Below the pieces are notes generated by a model that saw only the letters and a program-made list of their open reading frames with translations, was not told the DNA's origin and made no database searches. A DNA stretch of 64,000 bases. It comes from Planctomycetota bacterium. GTDB lineage: Bacteria; Planctomycetota; Planctomycetia; Pirellulales; Thermoguttaceae. Numbering within the stretch: the first letter of the stretch is position 1; each line of letters opens with the position of its first letter. Positions 12,886 through 26,624 of this stretch are shown here, piece after piece. A program made the translations under genes and the position numbers. The stretch is from positions 1-64,000 of the forward strand of contig JAKPGL010000135.1 of the NCBI GenBank assembly GCA_029550925.1, written 5' to 3'.

Positions 12886-12966
12886 TCCACTTGCTTGAAA
12901 AGGTTGGGGAGGCGTTCACCCCAGAGTACACTTCGAGAACTTCCCACGCTTGAAAGAGAGCTTTGC

Positions 12967-13452
12967 ATGGAAACGGCATTGGAAACAGAACTGGCTGGGT
13001 TGCTTCAGGAGCTTTTGGACCTGCAAAAGGAAACCCTCCAGATGTTGGAGCAAAAACAGCAGTTGCTCCGACAAGGCGAGGTGGAAGCATTGGGCGCTAC
13101 GAGCGAACAGGAGGAAGAGTTGCTCCGGCGTTGGGAGGGGTGTTTGCGGCGGCGGGAGGAGCTATTGGCGCAAGGGTCGGCCCAACGGTTGCCCGCCCAG
13201 AACTTGGAGCGATTGGCGGCCGCATTGCCTCGGCCTCAACGGGAGAAATTAGGAAAACAGGTGAAACTGGCGAAATCCCAAGCGCGTCTCCTCCAGCATC
13301 AGGCCCTGACCAATTGGGTGGTCGTTCACCGCTGCCTGCTTCATCTTTCCCAATTGTTAGAGATTCTCGCAACGGGCGGCCAGCCTGAGCCGACATATGG
13401 TAAAGACCACTCTTCTTTGAATTGTGGGGCGCTGGTGGACCAGGAAGTTTAG
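12967..13452 (+). CDS. flgN: FlgN-like flagellar export chaperone
   Basis: A 161-aa, strongly helical, coiled-coil protein (ELAGLLQELLDLQKETLQML and following, with many Gln/Glu/Leu heptads). This is the FlgN profile, a cytoplasmic chaperone of the hook-junction proteins FlgK and FlgL, and those two genes follow immediately. Sequence motifs alone are weak in this family, so the call rests on size, helicity and position. The frame is open to 12895, but the ATG at 12967 has an AGAGAG-type site and starts the helical region. Confidence 0.75.
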   Translation: METALETELAGLLQELLDLQKETLQMLEQKQQLLRQGEVEALGATSEQEEELLRRWEGCLRRREELLAQGSAQRLPAQNLERLAAALPRPQREKLGKQVKLAKSQARLLQHQALTNWVVVHRCLLHLSQLLEILATGGQPEPTYGKDHSSLNCGALVDQEV

Positions 13453-13500: not shown

Positions 13501-15198
13501 ATGACCCTCTATAGCTCCATCCGAATGGCCGCCAATACCCTGCAGGCCGACCAAATCGCCTTGCAGGTCATTGGGCAAAATATCGCCAACGCCAATACCC
13601 CCGGCTACATCCGCGAAGAGACGATCCTCACGCCTGCCCCCAGCCACCGGTACGGCGGATTGATTCTGGGGTTGGGGGTGCGGGTCGAAGCGGTCATCCA
13701 AAAGATCGACAACTTTCTCGAAGAACGCTTGCGCGGAGCGGTCAGCGACAAAACCAGCGCCGAAGCCCAAGAAGAAACCTATCTAGAACTAGAACAACTC
13801 CTGGCCGAACTGGGCGATACGGATCTAAGCACGCGGTTGAATGCCTTTTTCAGTAGTATTTCTGAAGTGCTGAATCAGCCGGAAAGCCGATCGGTCCGCA
13901 ATCTGGTCGTCCTGCAAGGCCAGACCTTGGCCTCCGAAATCAACCGCTTGGCCGCTCGCACGAATGAAATCCGTGCGGCGGTCAACGGCCGGGTGACCCA
14001 AATGGCCGACGACATCAACCGCCTGTTGGAAGAAATCCGCACGTTGAATATCCGAATTACAGAAACCGAAGGCGGTTCGGTTTCTAAAAGTCATGCGGTG
14101 GGCTTGCGGGATCAACGCCTGGCCGCCCTGGAAGACCTCGCCGAACTGATTTCTATCCGCGTCGAAGAGCAAGACAACGGTTCGGTAACCGTCTATTGTG
14201 GGGCGGATTATCTGGTGAGCGAAGGTCTGGCTCGGCAGGTGGAAGTGGCTGAGAACACCGATCGGGGCATGTCCCTTTCGTATATTCAATTGACGGATAC
14301 TAAATCGACCTTGGACACCACGGCTGGAAAATATCATGGGTTGGTCTATGCGAGGGACCAGATTCTCGGGGGTTTTTTCGATCAATTGGATGACTTCGCC
14401 CAGACGTTGATCTTCGAGTTCAACAAGATTTACGCCAGCGGCCAAGGGCTGGTTGGTTTCCAGCAAGTCACCAGCCAGGAGGAGGTCGATGCGGTCGATC
14501 AGCCCCTGAACCAGGTGGGTCTGTCGTTTACGCCGGTCAACGGATCGTTCCAAGTGTTGGTGTATAACCGGAAGACCGGGTTAACGAAGACGACGGACAT
14601 CCAGGTCGATCTGAACGGAATGGGCGAAGAGACGACTCTGGAAGACATTGCAGCGGCCCTGAATACGATCGACGGGATTTCGGCCGAGATCACCCCCTAC
14701 CGCGGTTTGAGCATTCAGAGCACATCTTCCGACCTGGAGTTTGGGTTTGCCGACGATACGAGCGGGCTGCTGGCGGCGTTAGGGATCAATACGTTTTTTA
14801 CCGGCGATTCGGCGCTAAGTATTGGGGTCAATTCCCAGGTGGCGGAGGAGCCTGCCCTATTGGCCGCCAGCCGAGGCGGCATCGGCGCCGATACGGAGAA
14901 CGCCGTGGATTTGGCCCGGTTTTTAGATATTCCTTTGGAAGCCCAAAACGGCGACACGTTGGCGGTGCTATATGACCGGTTGGTAAGCGGCGTTACCCAA
15001 GGGTCGGCCATTACGCAGGCGGTGGCCGAGGGCGCACGCACCTTTGAAGCCACCTTGCGAGGCCAAAAGCTGGCCATTAGCGGAGTGAGCATCGACGAAG
15101 AAGCAGTAAAAATGATTACCTTCCAGCGCCAGTTTGAAGCCGCCGCCCGGTACATCGCCAAGTTGAGCGAACTGTTTGAACTGTTGACGAGTATTTAA
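13501..15198 (+). CDS. flgK: Flagellar hook-associated protein 1 (FlgK)
   Basis: A 565-aa FlgK of normal length. The N terminus has the rod/hook-type motif (QVIGQNIANANTPGYIREET), and the C terminus has the matching helical closure (ITFQRQFEAAARYIAKLSEL). A middle segment (about residues 340-450, TTLEDIAAALNTIDGISAEI) resembles the flagellin_IN-type insert found in FlgK/FliD/flagellins. It joins hook to filament. AGGATAGG just before the ATG is the ribosome binding site. It follows the flgN-like chaperone gene by 48 bp. Confidence 0.95.
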   Translation: MTLYSSIRMAANTLQADQIALQVIGQNIANANTPGYIREETILTPAPSHRYGGLILGLGVRVEAVIQKIDNFLEERLRGAVSDKTSAEAQEETYLELEQLLAELGDTDLSTRLNAFFSSISEVLNQPESRSVRNLVVLQGQTLASEINRLAARTNEIRAAVNGRVTQMADDINRLLEEIRTLNIRITETEGGSVSKSHAVGLRDQRLAALEDLAELISIRVEEQDNGSVTVYCGADYLVSEGLARQVEVAENTDRGMSLSYIQLTDTKSTLDTTAGKYHGLVYARDQILGGFFDQLDDFAQTLIFEFNKIYASGQGLVGFQQVTSQEEVDAVDQPLNQVGLSFTPVNGSFQVLVYNRKTGLTKTTDIQVDLNGMGEETTLEDIAAALNTIDGISAEITPYRGLSIQSTSSDLEFGFADDTSGLLAALGINTFFTGDSALSIGVNSQVAEEPALLAASRGGIGADTENAVDLARFLDIPLEAQNGDTLAVLYDRLVSGVTQGSAITQAVAEGARTFEATLRGQKLAISGVSIDEEAVKMITFQRQFEAAARYIAKLSELFELLTSI

Positions 15199-15334: not shown

Positions 15335-18300
15335 ATGGCCAATGTCATTGGAATACCCAGCACCCGGGTGAGCGATCTGTTTGTACGGGAGCGTCTGCTC
15401 ACGCAGGTGGCCAAGGACCAATTGGCCCTGTTTAAGACCCAGACGCAGATGAGCACCGGCCGCCGCATCATCACGCCCAGCGAAGAGCCGGTTACCTCCA
15501 TGCGGGTGCTCAGTCTTCAGCGATTGCTGGAGCGTAAAACCCAGGTCAAGACGAACCTGGGCACCAACCAATCGTTCATGAGCGCTACGGACACGGCCTT
15601 GTCGAGCATTTCCTCGATGATGGCCGAGGTCCGGGCCAATGCTTTGGGCGTGATCGGCACCACGGCCAGCGACGAGCAGCGTCAAGCCGCCGCCATGCTC
15701 GTGCGCCAAGCCCTCCAGCAGTTGGTGGACGCCGGCAATCAAAACTTTCGCGGCCGATACCTGTTCGCCGGTTCCCTGACCGGTACGCGGCCGTTTGAAC
15801 TCCGCTCGGATAATATCGTCCGTTACCTGGGCAACGAACAGTTGCTGCAAAGCTACGGCGACGTGGATTTACTGTTTGCCACCAATTTGACCGGCCACGA
15901 GGTGTTCGGCGGTTTTTCCGAAGTGGTTCGCGGCACAGTGGACTTGAACCCGGTGCTTACGTTCAATACGCGTCTGGCCGACCTGAACGGCGGACAGGGC
16001 GTAAAACCTGGCAGTATTGAAGTCTCCAACGGGAGCGATTCGCAGATTGTCGATATTACCGGCTGCGAGACGATCGGCGATGTGGCCTTGCGGATGTTGG
16101 CCAATCAGCCGGCGGGCACTCAAATGTACATCGAAATCACGCCCACCGGACTGGAAATCTCCCTGAGCGCCGGCACCTTGTCCATCCGGGAGGTCGGCGG
16201 CGGAAGCACCGCCAGCGAACTGGGCATCCTGGCCAAAAACATAGGGACCGGCCCGTTGGTCGGCAAGGACCTGAATCCCGTTGTCCGCACCACCACCCCG
16301 TTGGACGACATTTTAGGTGTTCGCGCCCGTGCCGTGGTCCGATCGGTCGGCTCGGATAACGACATCATCGTTACCGCCCAATATCGCGGCGACGAATACA
16401 ACGGCGTTACCGTCTGCTACTACGACGACGGTACCGTCCTAGACCCCGGCATGGAATACGCCTGGTACGAAGACGCCACCCGCACGCTTTGGGTGAACAT
16501 GAAAACCGGTTACTCGACCGCCCAAAACATCGTGGCCGCCATCAACGCCGCTTATGACCCCGAGACCTGTCCTTTCCGCGCCGAACTGGACCCCTTGGAT
16601 GCCCAACGGGGCGGCCGGGCGGTGGTTACTGTCGGAGCATCGGCCCAGTTGCGATTCGGCGCCGGCGCCGAAATGGACCAAGATTCCGGCGTCCAAATCC
16701 TCAACGGCGGCCAAACCTACACCCTTACCTTTTCCGAAGAAGACGGCGTCCGAACCATCGAAGACCTGCTGAATGTCTTCAACGGCTCTGAGGCGGATGT
16801 CATTGCGGCCATCAACGCCGACGGCACAGGCATTGACGTTCGTTCCCGGCTGAGCGGCTGTGATTTTGCCATCGGCGAAAACGGCGGCATCACCGCCCAG
16901 CAACTCGGCATCCGCACGTTCGCCCAAGACACCCTTTTGGAAGACCTGAATTTCGGCCTGGGGGTTTCCGACTATACCGGCGTGGGCGAAAAAGCCTGGT
17001 GCGTCTGGGACTCTTCCACTACCAATAGCGACCTGGTGATCCGGGCCCGGCGCACCGGCGCCGAGTGGAACGATTTTACCGTGGAGTTTGTCGAAAAAGT
17101 GCCGCCCGGCGCGGATTCCGTCTCCTTCGACCTGGCTACAAAAACCATCCGGTTTGAAATCACGCCGGGCCAAACCACCGCTCAGGATATTCTCCGCCTG
17201 GTCAACGAAACGCCAGGCATTCGGGATTATTTTGAAGCCGATCTGGATAAACGAAACGAGCCGTATAACGACGGTACCGGCCTGGTCGATTGCAGCACGT
17301 CGGCCACGCTGAAACTTCAGTGGGGCGGCGATGATAACGACCTAATTCTCAAAGCCCGCAATCCGGGCGAGCAATGGAACGATGTCTTGGTCCAGGTTGT
17401 CGAAGGGGCGCCGGGGTTTACGTACTCCCGGGCCGCAAAAACGATGACCTTCTCCATTCAATCCGGGGTTACCACCGCCCAGGACATGATCACCTGGCTC
17501 CAGGCCGATCCAGACGCGAATGAAGATTTCGCCATTTATCTCGACCCGGACGACCACCCCGCCACCGGCAGCGGTACGGTTTGGGCGAAACCGAACCAAT
17601 GGACCGCCGGCGGCAAACTGGTTCAGGCCGTCCAGACCGCGGGCGGCTTTGTCGATAACGCCGATTTTATCATCACCCGCACCGACGGCGTCCGATTTGA
17701 GGTCAATCTTCAGGGGGCGCTGACGATCGGCGATGTCCTGGACCGGATCAACAACCACCCGGATAATTTGGCCACCGGTACGCCGCTGGTGGCCCGACTG
17801 GCCCGGTACGGTAACGGCATCGAACTGGTCGATAATTGCGGCGGCCCCGGCCAGCTCCGCATCCAGCGGACCTCCATGAGTCGGGCGGCCATTGAACTGG
17901 GACTGATTCCCGAAGGCCAGGAGTCCGCTACCGTATCCACGTTGGGTGTTCAGGCTTCGGTAAGTCTGGATTTCGGGACGGCTAATAGTGCCTTGATCGT
18001 GCGCACGCGCGGCCGGACCGATACCCTAGACGGAGTAACCGTCGAGTTTGTTAATGGCGGCCCAGGGGCCAATTCCTACTCCTACGACCCAATTGGCCGG
18101 GTGCTCACTTTTTCCATCGACCCGGGGGTAACGACGGCCAATGACGTAATCCAGCGGTTTAATCAGCAGCCGCCGCTGGACCCGACCGCCTATGCCCTTT
18201 TTGATGTGGTGTTGGATACCACGAGCGGACCGAACGACGGCACCGGAGCGGTAGGCGTGGCCAGTGGTGAGCTCGACGGCGGCGAGCCGGACCTGCTGAC

Positions 18301-18658
18301 TGGTCAGGATGTCAATCTGCAGGAGACCGACGGGTTATTTACGGCCTTGTTGCGATTGCACGAGGGGCTGATCCTCAACGACAACGCCCTGATTGAGCGG
18401 GCCATTGCCATGTTGGACGATCGGGTGGTGGATTTGAACTTTAGCCGAGCCAGCCTGGGGGCCAGACAACAGGGGTTAGATATTCTCAATCAGCGGTTAG
18501 AGGAAGAGGACTTGCACCTTCAGATGACGCTTTCGAACGATTTGGATGCGGACATGGTGGAAGTCATTTCTGAGTTTGTGGCTCGGCAGGCGACGTATGA
18601 GGCGGCGTTGCGAGCGACAGCCCAGATTTTCCAGCTTTCGCTGCTTAACTATTTATAA
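15335..18658 (+). CDS. flgL: Oversized hook-associated protein 3 (FlgL) with repeat insert
   Basis: A 1,107-aa protein with FlgL-type ends: N-terminal TQMSTGRRIITPSEEPVTSM and ENQNFRGRYLFAGS-like region (NQNFRGRYLFAGSLTG), C-terminal LGARQQGLDILNQRLEEEDL and ATAQIFQLSLLNYL. FlgL is usually 300-500 residues; the extra length is an insert containing four copies of a module of roughly 80-90 residues, starting near residues 340, 564, 667 and 884 (for example SDLVIRARRTGAEWNDFTVE and NDLILKARNPGEQWNDVLVQ). Two stretches resemble flagellin_IN domains (near 220-310 and 775-870). The same module occurs four times in the flagellin encoded downstream. It connects FlgK to the filament at the cell exterior. 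Confidence 0.93.
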   Translation: MANVIGIPSTRVSDLFVRERLLTQVAKDQLALFKTQTQMSTGRRIITPSEEPVTSMRVLSLQRLLERKTQVKTNLGTNQSFMSATDTALSSISSMMAEVRANALGVIGTTASDEQRQAAAMLVRQALQQLVDAGNQNFRGRYLFAGSLTGTRPFELRSDNIVRYLGNEQLLQSYGDVDLLFATNLTGHEVFGGFSEVVRGTVDLNPVLTFNTRLADLNGGQGVKPGSIEVSNGSDSQIVDITGCETIGDVALRMLANQPAGTQMYIEITPTGLEISLSAGTLSIREVGGGSTASELGILAKNIGTGPLVGKDLNPVVRTTTPLDDILGVRARAVVRSVGSDNDIIVTAQYRGDEYNGVTVCYYDDGTVLDPGMEYAWYEDATRTLWVNMKTGYSTAQNIVAAINAAYDPETCPFRAELDPLDAQRGGRAVVTVGASAQLRFGAGAEMDQDSGVQILNGGQTYTLTFSEEDGVRTIEDLLNVFNGSEADVIAAINADGTGIDVRSRLSGCDFAIGENGGITAQQLGIRTFAQDTLLEDLNFGLGVSDYTGVGEKAWCVWDSSTTNSDLVIRARRTGAEWNDFTVEFVEKVPPGADSVSFDLATKTIRFEITPGQTTAQDILRLVNETPGIRDYFEADLDKRNEPYNDGTGLVDCSTSATLKLQWGGDDNDLILKARNPGEQWNDVLVQVVEGAPGFTYSRAAKTMTFSIQSGVTTAQDMITWLQADPDANEDFAIYLDPDDHPATGSGTVWAKPNQWTAGGKLVQAVQTAGGFVDNADFIITRTDGVRFEVNLQGALTIGDVLDRINNHPDNLATGTPLVARLARYGNGIELVDNCGGPGQLRIQRTSMSRAAIELGLIPEGQESATVSTLGVQASVSLDFGTANSALIVRTRGRTDTLDGVTVEFVNGGPGANSYSYDPIGRVLTFSIDPGVTTANDVIQRFNQQPPLDPTAYALFDVVLDTTSGPNDGTGAVGVASGELDGGEPDLLTGQDVNLQETDGLFTALLRLHEGLILNDNALIERAIAMLDDRVVDLNFSRASLGARQQGLDILNQRLEEEDLHLQMTLSNDLDADMVEVISEFVARQATYEAALRATAQIFQLSLLNYL

Positions 18659-18784: not shown

Positions 18785-19225
18785 ATGTGGATCGCTACCA
18801 CACGATTCGGTCCCATCCAGTTCGAGCCGGAGGATGTGATCCGGTTTCCCGAAGGGATTTTAGGACTGCCTGACTGTCGGGATTGGCTCCTGTTGGCCGA
18901 CGGGCGGAACCAAAACTTGGCTTGGCTGCAAAGCCTGGATCGGCCGGAAGCGGCCCTTTGTGTGGTTAGTCCGCGCCGATTCGCGCCGAATTATCAGGTT
19001 CGCCTGCCCCGCCGAGAGTTGCAACCCTTGGAGCTGGAGGACATTCAATCCGCCGAGGTCTTGGTCGTCGTCAGCCGATCGGCCGGTTATATCACCTTGA
19101 ATCTGAAGGCCCCGTTGGTTCTGAACTTGCAACGTGGACTCGGTCGGCAGGTAGTTTGTTATGGGGACCAACCCATCCAGTACGTGGTAGCCAGCCTCAC
19201 ACCCGCTTTAAGAAAAAGCGCGTAA
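18785..19225 (+). CDS. fliW: Flagellar assembly factor FliW
   Basis: A 146-aa FliW: TRFGPIQFEPEDVIRFPEGI at the start, LGLPDCRDWLLL, then LNLKAPLVLNLQRGLGRQVV near the end. FliW binds flagellin and allosterically blocks CsrA, coupling flagellin level to flagellin translation in Bacillus and others. csrA follows 27 bp downstream and the flagellin gene is next, so the regulatory triad is complete here. GTAGAGG precedes the ATG. A preceding AT-rich gap of 126 bp may hold its own promoter, which I could not identify. Confidence 0.95.
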   Translation: MWIATTRFGPIQFEPEDVIRFPEGILGLPDCRDWLLLADGRNQNLAWLQSLDRPEAALCVVSPRRFAPNYQVRLPRRELQPLELEDIQSAEVLVVVSRSAGYITLNLKAPLVLNLQRGLGRQVVCYGDQPIQYVVASLTPALRKSA

Positions 19226-19578: not shown

Positions 19579-19756
19579 CCGGCTAACAGCGGGCGTTACG
19601 TAACTTAGGCTGTCCAGCCTGAGCCAATCGCCCGCTAACAGCGGGCGTTACGTAGCTTAGGCTGTCCAGCCTGAGCCAATCGCCCGCTAACAGCGGGCGT
19701 TACGTAACTTAGGCTGTCTAGCCTGAGCCAATCGCCGGCTAACAGCCGACGTTACG
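19579..19756. repeat. Hairpin-repeat array upstream of fliC
   Basis: Alternating A' and B units in forward orientation with an exact 52-bp period (A' units begin at 19629 and 19681). A' is CGCCCGCT-AAC-AGCGGGCG, an 8-bp perfect stem; B is the CTTAGGCTG...CAGCCTGAG unit. The first unit (19579) has mixed arms and the last (about 19733-19756) is type A (GCCGGCT/AGCCGAC). Junctions read GTTACGTAAC, itself a palindrome. The array lies between csrA and the fliC promoter. Confidence 0.93.
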
Positions 19757-20168: not shown

Positions 20169-22880
20169 ATGACCCGTATTAACACAAACGTCAGTTCGCT
20201 CAACGCCCAAAAGACGTTGTCGCGCAACACGCAAGCGTTGCAAACCGCTCTGACCCGTCTAAGCACCGGCTTGCGGATCAACACTGGGAAAGACGATCCA
20301 GCCGGTATGATCGCCGCGGAAATCATGCACAACAACATCGTTGCCGTGCAGAAAGCCATCAGCAACACCCAACGCGGCATGCAAATGATCGCCACGGTCG
20401 ACAGCGCCCTCGGCTCGATCACCAGCCTACTGCACGACATTCGGTCTCTAGTAACCGAGGCGGCCAACACGGCGGTGATGAGCGAAGAGCAGATCGCCGC
20501 TAACCAGATGCAGGTCGATAGCGCTCTGGAAGCCATCAACCGAATCGCCCAGGTTACCAAGTTCCAAGGCCGACGGGTGCTGGACGGCTCGTTGGACTTC
20601 ATCACCGACGCCAACACGATCCCGCAGATTCAGCACCTGAAGATCGACCAGGCCAACCTGGGCGCTACAGGCCAGATGGAAGTATCGGTGGAAATCGCCG
20701 CGCCGGCCACACGGGCCGAGATCACCACTTCCTCCGGCGCCGATTACGCTACCACGAACCTCTACTTCTCCAGCCGGGTGACGACCACCGGAAACGCCGA
20801 CGGGGCGGCCGTCAATCTATTTATCGCCGCCAAGTCGAACTCCCAGGAATTCGACGGCGTGCAGGTGATTTTCGACGGCAGCCAATCGGACGTATCCGCC
20901 ACCTACGACGCCACCTCGAAGATACTCTCCATTGGATTTGACGACGAGACATCTACTGTCCAGGATATTTTGGATGCAATCGAAGATACCGGACTGTTCG
21001 AGGCCTATTCGAACTCGGCAGACCCAGCCAATGAGGCGGCCAATGATTTTGTCAACGCCAACATGGCGACGGACTATATTACGATCACGGCCGACCAGGC
21101 AGGGACCGACTATAATAACGTCCGCGTCCTGTTGGAAGTGGATAATGACTTGGCGGCGAACGCACCGATCGCCAGCTACGATACGGTTACGAAGACCATC
21201 ACGGTCAAAGTTACCGGCGAAGACGACGAGGCCAACTACACGACGTTGCAGGCCATTACCAGTGCGATCAATACCTACGTCGGCGATTACTTTACCGCTA
21301 CGACAAAAAGCGGCGCCAATGCGACGCGGGTGTATGGGGCTTTGGCCTCCGATTTGGCCACCAAGGCCAGTACGGGCGTCAGCGGCTATCTGGAATCGGC
21401 CTTTAGTGCTGGCACCCGTGCTCAGGCTACGCTGACCTTTGCCGCCGCCGCGACGAAGGTCTTTACGACCAGCGCCGGCACGGCCACGATCGACATCAAG
21501 GCGAATGCCTTGGGCGCTCAGGCCGCCAACGTGAAGATCGACTTCCTCGATGACGTAAATGCCGGCGAAGAATACGCCGAGTATGATGAGAACGCCAAAT
21601 CGATGATCGTCCACTACTCGGGCGGCAACACGACGGTCGATCAGATCGCCGAGGCGATCGAAGCCACCGGCGACTGGACCGTGGTAGTCCGGGACGGCGG
21701 CACTGAGACGATCAACGCCGGCGGCCAAACTTCGGTCGAGACGGGCGAGGATTCGCTGATCGTCGAATCCATTCTGCCCGGATCGAACTTCAACAATATG
21801 CAGGTGGTCATTCAGACCGAGACCAACCTTGCCGCCCCGGTGGCCATGTACGACCAGGCCAATAATGTCTTCACTATCAAGGTCAAATACAGCGATACGA
21901 CGGCCACTACGCTCACCGACATTGCCGACGCCATCAACGCCGTGGACGGCTTTGCCGCCTACTACCGCGATAACGGCATCGGCCGGATTTACGGCAATAG
22001 CGTGGATAACACGGTCGTAGGCAACACCGGCTCCAGCGGCGGCAACGCCCTGCTGGATGACCTGGTGCTGGAAGTGGCCGGGCCGGACGGTATGGAGGTC
22101 TTCACCTTCTACCAAGGCACCACCGCCAACCAGGTGGCCGCCGCCTTCAACGCCGTCTCCGACGCCCTGGGCATCCTGGCCACCCAGGACAACGAACTGG
22201 TCTCCTTGAAGTCGTTGGAATACGGCTCCAAGCAGTCCGTGGCCGTCGATGTGATCAGCGAAGGGTCTCAGGGGGCGTTTACCCGCAGCGTGAGCGCCTT
22301 CCGCGACACCGGGACCGACATCCAGGCGAAGATCAATGGTGTTACGGCCACTGCGGACGGCAACAAGATGTGGATCAACACCTCGATGTTGGATCTCACG
22401 ATCGACGTGGCGCCCGAGACGGATGACAACTTCAAGTTCAATATCCTCGGCGGCGGCGCCCAGTTCCAGTTGGGACCCGACGTGGTTACCAACCAGCAGA
22501 TCCGCATGGGCATCAAGAGCTTGAACACCGCCCGGCTCGGCGGCGTCAGCGGCAAGATGTACCAATTGCAAACCGGCGGCGATGCCGACCTCTATACCAA
22601 TCCGAACCTGGCCGCCAAGATCGTCACCGAGGCCATCCAGGTGGTTACCGAGCTCCGAGGTCGCCTGGGCGCCTTGGAAGGTCTGACCATGCAGACCAAC
22701 GTCAAGACCATGGAAGACACCCTGGAAAACATGATAACCGCCGAAAGCCAGATCCGAGACGCCGACTTTGCGACCGAGACAGCCAACCTGACCCGGGCCC
22801 AAGTCCTGGTGCAATCCGGTATGGCCGTCTTGACCATCGCCAACCAGAACCCGCAAAACGTTCTGGCCCTGTTGCGGTAG
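20169..22880 (+). CDS. fliC: Oversized flagellin (FliC) with repeat modules
   Basis: A 903-aa flagellin. The conserved D0/D1 ends are intact: N-terminal MTRINTNVSSLNAQKTLSRN and LSTGLRINTGKDDPAGMIAA; C-terminal ETANLTRAQVLVQSGMAVLT and QNPQNVLALLR. The central part (about residues 215-615) carries four copies of a module of about 80-95 residues starting near residues 216, 302, 440 and 528; related modules occur in FlgL upstream. Typical flagellins are 270-550 residues. Six N-X-S/T sequons are present (Asn 7, 356, 384, 487, 737, 873), relevant to the GT41 gene downstream. GAAAAGG at 20154-20160 selects the ATG at 20169 over an upstream start at 20136. A terminator follows at 22968. Confidence 0.96.
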   Translation: MTRINTNVSSLNAQKTLSRNTQALQTALTRLSTGLRINTGKDDPAGMIAAEIMHNNIVAVQKAISNTQRGMQMIATVDSALGSITSLLHDIRSLVTEAANTAVMSEEQIAANQMQVDSALEAINRIAQVTKFQGRRVLDGSLDFITDANTIPQIQHLKIDQANLGATGQMEVSVEIAAPATRAEITTSSGADYATTNLYFSSRVTTTGNADGAAVNLFIAAKSNSQEFDGVQVIFDGSQSDVSATYDATSKILSIGFDDETSTVQDILDAIEDTGLFEAYSNSADPANEAANDFVNANMATDYITITADQAGTDYNNVRVLLEVDNDLAANAPIASYDTVTKTITVKVTGEDDEANYTTLQAITSAINTYVGDYFTATTKSGANATRVYGALASDLATKASTGVSGYLESAFSAGTRAQATLTFAAAATKVFTTSAGTATIDIKANALGAQAANVKIDFLDDVNAGEEYAEYDENAKSMIVHYSGGNTTVDQIAEAIEATGDWTVVVRDGGTETINAGGQTSVETGEDSLIVESILPGSNFNNMQVVIQTETNLAAPVAMYDQANNVFTIKVKYSDTTATTLTDIADAINAVDGFAAYYRDNGIGRIYGNSVDNTVVGNTGSSGGNALLDDLVLEVAGPDGMEVFTFYQGTTANQVAAAFNAVSDALGILATQDNELVSLKSLEYGSKQSVAVDVISEGSQGAFTRSVSAFRDTGTDIQAKINGVTATADGNKMWINTSMLDLTIDVAPETDDNFKFNILGGGAQFQLGPDVVTNQQIRMGIKSLNTARLGGVSGKMYQLQTGGDADLYTNPNLAAKIVTEAIQVVTELRGRLGALEGLTMQTNVKTMEDTLENMITAESQIRDADFATETANLTRAQVLVQSGMAVLTIANQNPQNVLALLR

Positions 22881-22967
22881 TCGGCCGAACGGGTTGGCCC
22901 CTAGGAGATTAGGTAAAAAGCCTTCCGTCTCCAAGACCAACCCGCCAATAAAAAAGAAGCGACCCCA

Positions 22968-23002
22968 GCGGCGTGTTTCTCAGCGAAACACGCCGCTTTT
23001 TT
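22968..23002 (+). terminator. Intrinsic terminator after fliC
   Basis: GCGGCGTGTTTC (22968-22979) pairs perfectly with GAAACACGCCGC (22985-22996) around a 5-nt loop and is followed by six T residues (22997-23002). It ends the flagellin transcript 88 bp after the stop codon. Confidence 0.95.
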
Positions 23003-23006
23003 ATTG

Positions 23007-23136
23007 ACGTAACTTAGGCTGTCCAGCCTGAGCCAATCCGCCCGCTAACAGCGGGCGTTACGTAACTTAGGCTGTCCAGCCTGAGACGCCGACTCACAGC
23101 CGACGGTACAGCCACACGGCGGTACGCTGCCGTGTC
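23007..23136. repeat. Hairpin-repeat array between fliC and the radical SAM gene
   Basis: Forward-oriented units: B (about 23007-23029), A' (about 23038-23060), B (about 23063-23085), a worn A (about 23086-23106), and a distinct hairpin ACACGGC-GGTACGCT-GCCGTGT (about 23114-23135). It starts within about 10 bases of the fliC terminator's T-run. Confidence 0.88.
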
Positions 23137-23316
23137 GAGCCGGTTGCACCGACTTTGCCGATTGTATGTTCAGAATCGGTTGTAGCAGACGAACCAGTTC
23201 TATCGGCCAAGAAGTATTCCTTGGACGCTTTATACTTGCTGCGCCGATGGAATCAGAAAGATCGAAAATACCAGACGTATCGACGAAACAGAGCCTCCTC
23301 CGGCAGGAACAGAGCG

Positions 23317-24255
23317 GTGAGCATTGCGACCCAGACCGCCAAAGTGGCCTTCGGACAGACGCCGTATCGGACCTATTGCCAGATGCTCCAGGGCCAATAT
23401 CTGGATAGCCCGATGCACGTCCATATTGAGACCCTGGGGATGTGTAACGCCCGGTGTCGATGCTGCCCGAACGCTATTTCGCCCCGCCGACATCAGAAAA
23501 TGTCCGACCAGTTGTTTGCTAAGATCGTGGAAGACTTAAAGCAATTGCCGCAGGATCGACCGTTGGCCATTTCGCCGTTCAAGCTGAACGAACCGCTCCT
23601 GGACCCGAAAATCTTCGACCGGATGAAGACCTTGGCCCGTGCGCTGCCGCAAGTCAGACTGTGGCTGACGAGCAACTGGGCCTTGGCCGACGCGGAGCGA
23701 CTCCATCAGTTGGCCGAGGTCCCCAAACTGGGCTACATCTGGATTTCGCTCAACAGCTTGGACCCGGAGGAATACCGGCAGTGGATGGGATTGGATCTCC
23801 ACAAGACGGTGGAGAATGTCCGTCGGCTCTTAACGCTGAATCGGCGGCGGCAGTTTGTGCCCCGGGTGATCCTTGGCCGGGTGGCCGACGGCACAGACCG
23901 AGACCGCCGATTCGCCAAGGATGCCCGGCGCCTCTTTGCCGAGTTTCAGGAGGGGAAGGACTATGAGGTCGGCCTATTGCCTCGGGGCGATTGGATGGAC
24001 GATTGTCCGGAAGAACACAACCTGGCCGCCTCCAGACTAGCAGAACAGCCTTGCTCCCGATGGTTTGAACTTTCGATCACCTGTACCGGCCAGGTGGCCT
24101 TTTGCTGCATGGATGGCTTGTGCCATCATCCATTGGGCGATGTGAACCAACAGAGCATTTTGGAGATCTACCAGCAGGCGGCCTACCGGGAGCTTCGGCA
24201 ACGGCTTCCGCCCCGCCGGCTGGTAGGCCCCTGTGTAGGATGTACGTTTCCCTAA
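23317..24255 (+). CDS. Radical SAM protein with C-terminal SPASM-like cysteines
   Basis: A 312-aa radical SAM enzyme (366 aa if it starts at the TTG at 23155). The iron-sulfur motif is CNARCRCC (CX3CX2C), in HVHIETLGMCNARCRCCPNA. Further cysteines toward the C terminus (CSRWFELSITCTGQVAFCCM, then GPCVGCTFP) suggest an auxiliary cluster as in SPASM proteins. The substrate is unknown. It lies between fliC and a GT41 gene, bracketed by repeat arrays, so flagellin or glycan modification is possible but unproven. GTG 23317 has AGGA 8 bases upstream; the preceding 54 codons look partly protein-like (YSLDALYLLRRWNQ), so the true start is uncertain. Confidence 0.82.
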   Translation: MSIATQTAKVAFGQTPYRTYCQMLQGQYLDSPMHVHIETLGMCNARCRCCPNAISPRRHQKMSDQLFAKIVEDLKQLPQDRPLAISPFKLNEPLLDPKIFDRMKTLARALPQVRLWLTSNWALADAERLHQLAEVPKLGYIWISLNSLDPEEYRQWMGLDLHKTVENVRRLLTLNRRRQFVPRVILGRVADGTDRDRRFAKDARRLFAEFQEGKDYEVGLLPRGDWMDDCPEEHNLAASRLAEQPCSRWFELSITCTGQVAFCCMDGLCHHPLGDVNQQSILEIYQQAAYRELRQRLPPRRLVGPCVGCTFP

Positions 24256-24270: not shown

Positions 24271-24409
24271 CGTAACGTCGGCTGTTAGACGGCGCTGGCT
24301 CAGGCTAGACAGCCTAAGTTACGTAACGCCCGCTGTCTAGCGGGCGGATTGGCTCAGCCTGGACAGGCTAAGCTACGGATTGCCTCAGCCTGGACAGCCT
24401 AAGTTACGT
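24271..24409. repeat. Hairpin-repeat array in reverse orientation
   Basis: The same family on the opposite strand: A (about 24271-24294), B (about 24297-24322), A' (about 24323-24347), B variant (about 24351-24376) and B variant (about 24382-24408). In the 24351 copy the inner arms read AGCCT...AGGCT, against AGGCT...AGCCT elsewhere: a swapped pair that keeps the stem. The 24382 copy reads AGCCT...AGCCT and cannot pair there, like a half-changed intermediate. Confidence 0.9.
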
Positions 24410-24422
24410 ACCGAGGGTTTCT

Positions 24423-26624
24423 ATGGGCCGCCGGAAAAAACACCAACATCCTCTCTCTTCCCCGTCGAAGCGATCCTCAAGCTGCCGACAGGGCATGGCT
24501 CGGGCCGCCCCGTCTGCTGTTTCTCCGGCGCTGAAGAGTTTCCTCTTGCCGGAAACCGCAGAATGGGTCAAAATGAACGCCCAAAGGACTGGGGGACAAC
24601 CTGGAGGGGTTTCGCCTCCCCCTAGGAAGCCGTCTTCCTCCACGGACGGCCCCGCCCCTTTGTCCCCTCCCGGTCCCACGCCCAAGGTCTTCCCGGGGGA
24701 AGATCGGTCTGGACCCATAGGGGCCTTAGCAACCATGGGGAAAAAACAGAACATTTCGGAGAACTCTGGCCTAGGATCATCCGGGGCACGAGTTGCCCAA
24801 GCCCAGTCGGAGAATCCCCCCAGATCGCAATCGGCCGAGGGGCAACCGCCGGAGTCCAAGGAGCCGGTCCCTCCGCGGTTCGACCCGGCCGAGGTCCTGC
24901 GGGCTTATTTGGCCGGCAACCATCGCCAGGCATTAGACGCCTGTTTGGAAGTGCTTCGATTCTACCACGACCATTCGATCGAACGAGTAACGCCAGAGAT
25001 AAAAAATTACATCAATCCGTTCGTCGAGACATGCCTCTATCTTCTGACCAAATCGGATCTGCGAATCGAGCGGGACCAGGCCATACAACTGATGGGCGCC
25101 CAACATATATTGATCCACTTGACGGCCATTTCGGATTTCAAGACCACGGACGCCCAGTTGGCCATGGTGCGGGACCAGCCGCGAAACCTGCTTCGTCTGG
25201 TGCTGCTGTACTCGGTGCGGAACCGGGCGGTGCTGCCGGCCAAGGCGCTGTTTGACGCCGATCCATTTTTGGCTTCGTTGTGGTATGCATCGTATCCGAT
25301 GGGCACGGTAGGGGCGGTAACCGAAGTGCTTTGGGAAAATCTGTTGCGGCACTTATCCTATGTCGATCCCCGGCTTCAGGCCCCCGACCCTCGGATTTTA
25401 GGTTTCTATTTTAAATCCACGCAGATCGCCCCGGGACAAGAGCGCCCGTTGAAAGACCGTTGGAACGCCGACATTCGTCGGCAATTGGCCGAGATTCGGC
25501 TCCAGAACCGGCCGGATCCCAAAAGTGTGGCCATCCTCACGGGAAAATGGTTTCATGGCAGTGCGGTGCACCGGAGTCTGTCGCCGCTGGTGCATTCGCT
25601 GAAGGACAAGTATAAATTAACTTTAGTTCATCTTGGGCCGTGGCATAAAGATTTAGATACAGCGCCGTTTGCCGAGGTGCGGCGTGTGGAGATGACGGGG
25701 GCCGAGTTGGATTGCACCCAGATCGAACACAACGACTTTCAGGTAGCGTTTTTCCCTGATATCGGGATGACCCCGGAATCGTTGTGGCTGTCGAACATGC
25801 GCATTGCGCCGATCCAGGCCACCGGCTACGGCCACCCGGCCAGCACCGGCGTTTCAGAGATCGACTATTTCATCGGCGGGGCGGAAACGGAATTGATCAG
25901 CCGGGCCGTCGATTACTATGCAGAACGTCTGGTGCTCTTACCGGGCTTAGGCGCTGTGCCCACCTATCCCGGCTTCTATCAACCGAGGTTCCCAGAGCGA
26001 AAAGACGACGCCGTGGTGATCAATCTGCCCTGGGGAGCAACGAAGACGAACTACCCGTTGCTTTGTCGGCTCAAAACGATTCAGCAGTGCGCCAGCCGAC
26101 CGGTGCGACTGCATTTTTTCCCGGCCTGGGGGTTGAACCGCTACTGTGCGCCGCCGCTTTTTGTCGAGGGAATCAGCGATCTGTTCGGGAATACCGCAAC
26201 GGTGTATGGGAATCGGTCTATCCCAGAATATCTGGCCCTGATGGAACAAGGCGATCTGTGCCTGGACAGCTATCCGTTCGGCGGCTTCAACACGATTATC
26301 GACGGTCTGTATCTGGCCAAGCCGGTGGTGGTGCAGGAAGGGGAATTTTTCTGCAACCGAGCCGGGGCGGCGCTGCTGCGCAGGGTCGGTCTGGACGAAC
26401 TGGTCGCCCACAGCGAAGAGGAGTATATCGGCAAAGCTCTTCGGCTTGTGGAAGACGAGAGCTATCGGCGGTCCATAACAGAGCGACTCCGGAATCTGGA
26501 TTTGCAAAAACTGATCTTCCAGCGGGACGATCCGACGGCCTTCTGCCGGGCCATCGACTACCTGATAGAAAATCACGCCAGAATCCGACAAGAGAAAACC
26601 AACGAACCGATCGTCATTCGCTGA
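24423..26624 (+). CDS. GT41-family glycosyltransferase (HMW1C-like)
   Basis: A 733-aa protein. The first 140 residues are Pro/Ser-rich and probably disordered. Residues about 150-345 are helical, without clear TPR repeats. The C-terminal half is a GT41 (OGT/HMW1C) catalytic region: AFFPDIGMTPESLWLSNMRI, APIQATGYGHPASTG, then EIDYFIGG, and YPFGGFNTIIDGLYLAKPVV. The IGM..., APIQA...GHP and PFG motifs resemble HMW1C, which transfers hexoses to Asn in N-X-S/T sites in the cytoplasm. Its position after the flagellin and radical SAM genes makes flagellin a candidate substrate. The ATG at 24423 has GAGGG 5 bases upstream; an internal ATG at 24735 is possible. O-GlcNAc-type activity is the alternative. 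Confidence 0.8.
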   Translation: MGRRKKHQHPLSSPSKRSSSCRQGMARAAPSAVSPALKSFLLPETAEWVKMNAQRTGGQPGGVSPPPRKPSSSTDGPAPLSPPGPTPKVFPGEDRSGPIGALATMGKKQNISENSGLGSSGARVAQAQSENPPRSQSAEGQPPESKEPVPPRFDPAEVLRAYLAGNHRQALDACLEVLRFYHDHSIERVTPEIKNYINPFVETCLYLLTKSDLRIERDQAIQLMGAQHILIHLTAISDFKTTDAQLAMVRDQPRNLLRLVLLYSVRNRAVLPAKALFDADPFLASLWYASYPMGTVGAVTEVLWENLLRHLSYVDPRLQAPDPRILGFYFKSTQIAPGQERPLKDRWNADIRRQLAEIRLQNRPDPKSVAILTGKWFHGSAVHRSLSPLVHSLKDKYKLTLVHLGPWHKDLDTAPFAEVRRVEMTGAELDCTQIEHNDFQVAFFPDIGMTPESLWLSNMRIAPIQATGYGHPASTGVSEIDYFIGGAETELISRAVDYYAERLVLLPGLGAVPTYPGFYQPRFPERKDDAVVINLPWGATKTNYPLLCRLKTIQQCASRPVRLHFFPAWGLNRYCAPPLFVEGISDLFGNTATVYGNRSIPEYLALMEQGDLCLDSYPFGGFNTIIDGLYLAKPVVVQEGEFFCNRAGAALLRRVGLDELVAHSEEEYIGKALRLVEDESYRRSITERLRNLDLQKLIFQRDDPTAFCRAIDYLIENHARIRQEKTNEPIVIR

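Follow-up and report, generated by a model that had tools for sequence, protein, structure and literature searches.

A stretch of 64,000 nucleotides from a planctomycete of the family Thermoguttaceae, hereafter the window, encodes a putative HMW1C-like protein glycosyltransferase of family GT41 (24423..26624, forward strand), and a flagellin gene (20169..22880, forward strand) ends 1.5 kb before it, the distance given in an earlier note on this DNA. The arrangement raises the question of whether an enzyme of this kind could modify flagellin and, if so, on which residues; the earlier note had pointed to six N-X-S/T sequons, two of them (Asn 7 and Asn 873) as less likely targets. HMW1C-like enzymes have been described from four proteobacterial families, where their genes lie beside those of adhesins or stand isolated (PMC3983070). 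Flagellin glycosylation occurs in the cytoplasm, and genetic linkage to the flagellin genes is common (PMC12645811). The reviewed systems, Maf and FlmG among them, share with the arrangement proposed here a transferase gene near flagellin and a cytoplasmic modification that precedes export, but they are O-linked and, unlike the window enzyme, not HMW1C-like (PMC12645811). Among the titles and abstracts listed by searches of an open-access library on HMW1C with flagellin and on the glycosylation of planctomycete flagellin, none reports the pairing of an HMW1C-like enzyme with flagellin seen here.

Our answer, held with moderate confidence, is that the gene encodes a soluble cytoplasmic, UDP-sugar-using HMW1C-like GT41 enzyme that has been recruited to the flagellin locus and most likely adds single sugars to flagellin before export. 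A UDP-sugar would be bound in the GT-B cleft and one sugar would be moved to newly made flagellin prior to its export, to an acceptor that could be Asn, Ser or Thr; the family, the predicted fold, the conserved UDP-contact residues and the synteny with flagellin in two genera are observed, whereas the activity, the cytoplasmic location, the substrate and the order of events are what we infer. More tentatively, and with somewhat less than even expectation, the planctomycete HMW1C-like lineage may act on flagellin with changed acceptor recognition, which would amount either to a one-enzyme cytoplasmic N-linkage or to an HMW1C-type enzyme working on Ser/Thr. If true, an HMW1C-type enzyme linked to flagellin in Planctomycetota would constitute a third genomic setting for such enzymes and a new route of filament decoration.

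Family and predicted fold

The open reading frame and the motifs that had drawn attention to it are present as described. It begins with ATG and encodes 733 amino acids, the start codon being supported by the MGRRKK-type N-terminus that the orthologues share, and the gene occurs in a single copy in the 4.9-Mb genome. The Pfam GT41 model (PF13844) matches the window protein with 46 bits, above its cut-off of 25, and also matches all 18 aligned homologues; the window protein carries no TPR match in Pfam. A profile of the 18 homologues recognises AaNGT and ApNGT at 180–183 bits (AaNGT 183) across both the all-alpha and the GT-B domains, whereas OGT reaches about 78 bits against the same profile and in parts of the catalytic domain only. 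Profile-profile comparison with hhalign aligned 522 columns at a probability of 99.9.

In the AlphaFold2 model (pLDDT 77.7), residues 1–145 are predicted to be disordered and are followed by an all-alpha domain (about 150–355) and a GT-B domain (about 360–733). Foldseek returned AaNGT and ApNGT as the solved structures nearest to the model (E about 1e-29), and comparison with AaNGT gave a Z of 38.4 over 559 residues with an rmsd of 2.7 Å, against Z values of 24–32 for OGT and SPINDLY chains. In a maximum likelihood tree of the GT region (LG+G4, 1000 ultrafast bootstraps), rooted by midpoint only, the window protein forms a clade with homologues from families f8 and f53 (support 100), AaNGT and ApNGT join homologues from f63 (support 100) and a TPR/OGT/SPINDLY group is separate (support 98). 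The catalytic (GT) region of the window protein thus falls on the HMW1C side, apart from OGT and SPINDLY, and the earlier assignment to the HMW1C branch of GT41 is borne out by the sequence profile, the predicted fold and the tree. Placement of the window protein in the HMW1C-like structural branch is well supported.

The Pasteurellaceae GT41 N-glucosyltransferases AaNGT, ApNGT and HMW1C resemble the window protein in combining an all-alpha N-terminal domain with GT-B in the absence of TPR, and the match extends over the full length in profile and fold. Identity in the GT region is about 25%, however, the window protein has an extra disordered N-terminus of 145 residues, and its gene adjoins flagellin and not an adhesin. 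OGT, SPINDLY and the planctomycete TPR-GT41 proteins share with the window protein the GT41 GT-B core, a conserved catalytic-domain Lys and the C-terminal half of Pfam GT41, but they differ in carrying TPR repeats, in their separate position in the tree and in a weaker profile and fold match.

The flagellin locus and its distribution

Upstream of the GT41 gene, and on the same strand, the window encodes the flagellar chaperone FlgN (12895..13452, Pfam FlgN), the hook-associated proteins FlgK (13501..15198, NCBIfam TIGR02492) and FlgL (15335..18658, NCBIfam TIGR02550), both scoring above cut-off, the flagellin-binding assembly factor FliW (18785..19225, Pfam FliW) and then the flagellin itself, the probable substrate, a protein of 903 residues matching Pfam Flagellin_N and Flagellin_C. 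Between flagellin and GT41 lies a gene that went unmentioned in the earlier note and that encodes a radical SAM/SPASM protein of 366 residues, with an uncertain start (23155..24255, forward strand; Pfam PF04055 and PF13186); in a search of 99 relatives it was carried only by the window genome (G000) and by G001. A strong terminator-like hairpin on the forward strand 3' of flagellin (22967..22997), with a 13-bp stem and a 5-nt loop followed by TTTTTATT, stands between flagellin and the downstream radical SAM/GT41 pair, and co-transcription is therefore unlikely.

The GT41 gene is present in 4 of the 119 genomes of the family, and three of the four copies adjoin flagellin. G001 shows the order flgL-fliW-flagellin-radical SAM-GT41, and G039, which belongs to a second genus, the order flgK-flgL-flagellin-methyltransferase-GT41, in which a methyltransferase replaces the radical SAM protein. 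The fourth carrier, G029, has a methyltransferase of the same family followed by GT41 and then a TPR-GT41, located away from its flagellin; Pfam detects Methyltransf_23 and a C-methyltransferase C-terminal domain in the G029 methyltransferase. Scanning of genome contigs yielded a 72% identical orthologue in one Thermoguttaceae MAG as the sole relative, and scanning of viral contigs yielded no relative.

The case for a flagellar role rests mainly on adjacency to flagellin, which recurs in two genera, and this synteny backs the link between enzyme and flagellin that had been drawn earlier from the window. Since three of the four family copies adjoin flagellin, one of them in a second genus, a flagellin-modifying cytoplasmic transferase is the best reading of the gene's distribution. 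Against a flagellin role stand the position of the G029 copy, the separation by the hairpin and the case of G002, a member of the same genus with a flagellin 80% identical to that of the window and a genome lacking both the GT41 and the radical SAM genes. The enzyme is thus unnecessary for a flagellin of this type.

A homologue of the methyltransferase, of 62% identity, lies near flagellin and a TPR-sulfotransferase in G012, and in G096 another adjoins a TPR-GT41, downstream of flgL. BLAST labels had suggested that TPR-GT41 proteins are the neighbours of flagellin in other planctomycetes; this was rejected, since Pfam detects no GT41 in these neighbours and identifies them as a TPR-sulfotransferase in G012, as TPR with a weak match to GT9 in G079, or as TPR only. 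In G012, the TPR-sulfotransferase fusion (L132:6141-8069, forward strand) and the C-methyltransferase-type gene (L132:4489-5691, reverse strand) adjoin flagellin and are possibly a further flagellin-modification module.

Donor and acceptor residues

Residue roles were taken from the structures of AaNGT (PMC10507012). The UDP-contact residues R280, G369, H370, K440, Y500, N520 and D524 of AaNGT are all kept in the window protein, as R384, G470, H471, K541, Y603, N623 and D627, respectively. Changed are H276 (to S380), S277 (to A381), T437 (to G538), H494 (to N597), H214 (to L326) and D215 (to G327). R177 aligns to G294 or V296, according to the sequence set, within a loop that is without Arg; three MAFFT modes concur on one sequence set, and this stretch is the least certain region of the alignment. 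In AaNGT, the Arg177/Asp215 pair reads the +2 Thr/Ser of the sequon, and the R177A and D215A mutants are inactive (PMC10507012). The canonical sequon-reading residues therefore appear to be changed in the window protein; D322 and R324, which do not vary among the four family members, are candidates for standing in for the pair. The pair is kept in none of the planctomycete homologues tested, the position of D215 being occupied by H in f8, by C, V or I in f53 and by R in f63, and since it is missing from all of them its absence alone does not rule out N-transfer. On sequence, the window protein is nevertheless not filed as a sequon-specific N-glycosyltransferase, because it lacks the pair and because its score of 109 bits with the NCBIfam N-glucosyltransferase model (NF049992) lies far under the equivalog cut-off of 1000.

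Replacement of all of R177, D215, H214, H276 and S277 on the acceptor side fits an enzyme that modifies flagellin on Ser/Thr through an altered acceptor site, a reading that is also in line with the treatment of bacterial flagellin glycosylation as O-linked (PMC12645811) and with the O-specificity of the remainder of GT41 (PMC3012730, PMC3983070). Asn is, however, the acceptor of the closest characterised relatives, and we regard O-linked modification as a possibility to be entertained, while leaning against it.

Homologues beside giant proteins

Family f8, a sister clade that belongs to the same order, carries full-length homologues of 32–35% identity; 11 f8 carriers were tested for flagellin, and none has one. 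In G217, a giant open reading frame 3' of the GT41 gene contains 120 sequons where 64 are expected (z 8.6), and in G115 another, beyond an FkbM-type methyltransferase gene, contains 138 where 82 are expected (z 7.8). In both giant proteins (L068:10535-17629, forward strand, and L077:2-7678, reverse strand), a strong X-x-[ST] excess is confined to Asn, and beta-strand periodicity is for that reason an unlikely source of the sequons; the L068 protein has no Pfam match. The pattern rests on two f8 loci, the other f8 loci, several of them on short contigs, being without it. Their sequences suggest that the giants are heavily N-glycosylated surface proteins in a planctomycete family without flagellin, and the arrangement in G217 and G115, with the enzyme near a sequon-rich giant, resembles the HMW1C-adhesin layout (PMC3983070). 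With f8 homologues near sequon-rich giants and window-type enzymes near sequon-poor flagellin, acceptor specificity would be testable within one clade.

These two loci, together with the lack of flagellin in f8, the G029 gene located away from flagellin and the literature examples of HMW1C-like genes adjoining adhesins or standing isolated (PMC3983070), are consistent with a main substrate that is some different surface protein, such as a large adhesin, in which case the proximity to flagellin would be incidental or regulatory. Yet no homologue of the f8 giant protein was found in G000, G001, G039 or G029, and about 0.38 Mb sampled from the window genome, window included, contains no strongly sequon-enriched open reading frame (best z 3.1), its sequons totalling 220 observed against 219 expected. 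The flagellin position, moreover, recurs in two genera, and a main substrate other than flagellin is in our estimate rather unlikely.

Sequons of the flagellins

Returning to flagellin as the preferred substrate, the six sequons reported earlier for the window flagellin (N7, N356, N384, N487, N737 and N873) are all exactly placed. Shuffled sequences lead one to expect 11.4 ± 3.0, and 98% of the shuffles reach at least 6. The flagellins beside the orthologous enzymes have 10 against 13.3 expected (G001) and 11 against 17.1 (G039), so that all three enzyme-adjacent flagellins lie at or below chance (z -1.8, -1.1 and -1.7). N7, N356, N737 and N873 are sequons in the enzyme-free G002 flagellin as well, and the positions of N7 and N737 are widely common, with N in 23 of 24 and 24 of 24 flagellins, respectively. 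The N487 sequon occurs in the window flagellin alone, and the N384 sequon is present in the two members of the genus that carry GT41 (G000 and G001) and missing from G002. The shuffles and the enzyme-free relative rule out the sequon count as evidence for N-glycosylation, and as judged from these sequences the counts lend it no support.

The earlier proposal that flagellin is N-glycosylated at the named sequons therefore finds no support, given a count below chance, the sharing of most sites with G002 and an R177/D215 pair that is unconserved in the alignments, its members being swapped for non-equivalent residues. A true N-glycosyltransferase acting on N-X-S/T of flagellin, for which the central and presumably surface-exposed N356, N384 and N487 would be the relevant sites, is consistent with the HMW1C-like fold and donor site and with the distribution of the N384 sequon; in addition, two f8 relatives adjoin proteins with an Asn-specific richness in N-X-S/T, from which the wider clade may well use sequons. 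We consider N-linkage to flagellin unlikely all the same. Improbable, finally, is an enzyme that elongates or otherwise alters a glycan or a small molecule and does not act directly on protein, a reading compatible with the differing acceptor-side residues and with the ability of HMW1C itself to make hexose-hexose bonds (PMC3983070), but opposed by the structurally closest solved enzymes, all of them protein glycosyltransferases, and by the finding of no other recognised glycosyltransferase gene adjoining the window GT41.

Further loci and a palindromic repeat

Several additional gene arrangements were observed. In G029, two more GT41/TPR-type genes lie right 3' of the HMW1C-like gene (L034:12142-14430 and L034:14629-15543, both on the forward strand) and constitute a local GT41 cluster. 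Three f53 genomes carry, immediately 3' of the HMW1C-like gene, a DegT/DnrJ/EryC1/StrS aminotransferase gene (L083:8893-11920, L079:6224-9269 and L081:2143-5299), which hints at an amino-sugar donor. A divergent HMW1C-like gene (L084:8329-10290 and L086:8302-10296), which groups with AaNGT and ApNGT in the tree (support 100), has flgI and further basal-body genes about 2 kb away and adjoins a DegT-type aminotransferase gene and a TPR-GT61 gene.

The intergenic regions around the radical SAM gene of the window carry a palindromic interspersed repeat, TTAGGCTGTCCAGCCTGAG, with a unit spacing of about 52 bp and a second hairpin, GCCCGCTAACAGCGGGC. The interval from flagellin to the radical SAM gene contains two copies (23014..23085, forward strand), and that from the radical SAM gene to GT41 three inverted copies (24299..24402, reverse strand), this second cluster stopping 20 bp 5' of the GT41 start codon, so that the radical SAM gene is bracketed exactly by clusters in inverted orientation. 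When up to one mismatch is allowed, the window genome contains 135 copies, G001 one and G002 none. Further sites in the window lie at 27-45 and 19605-19727, and the clusters elsewhere are located mostly in gaps between open reading frames.
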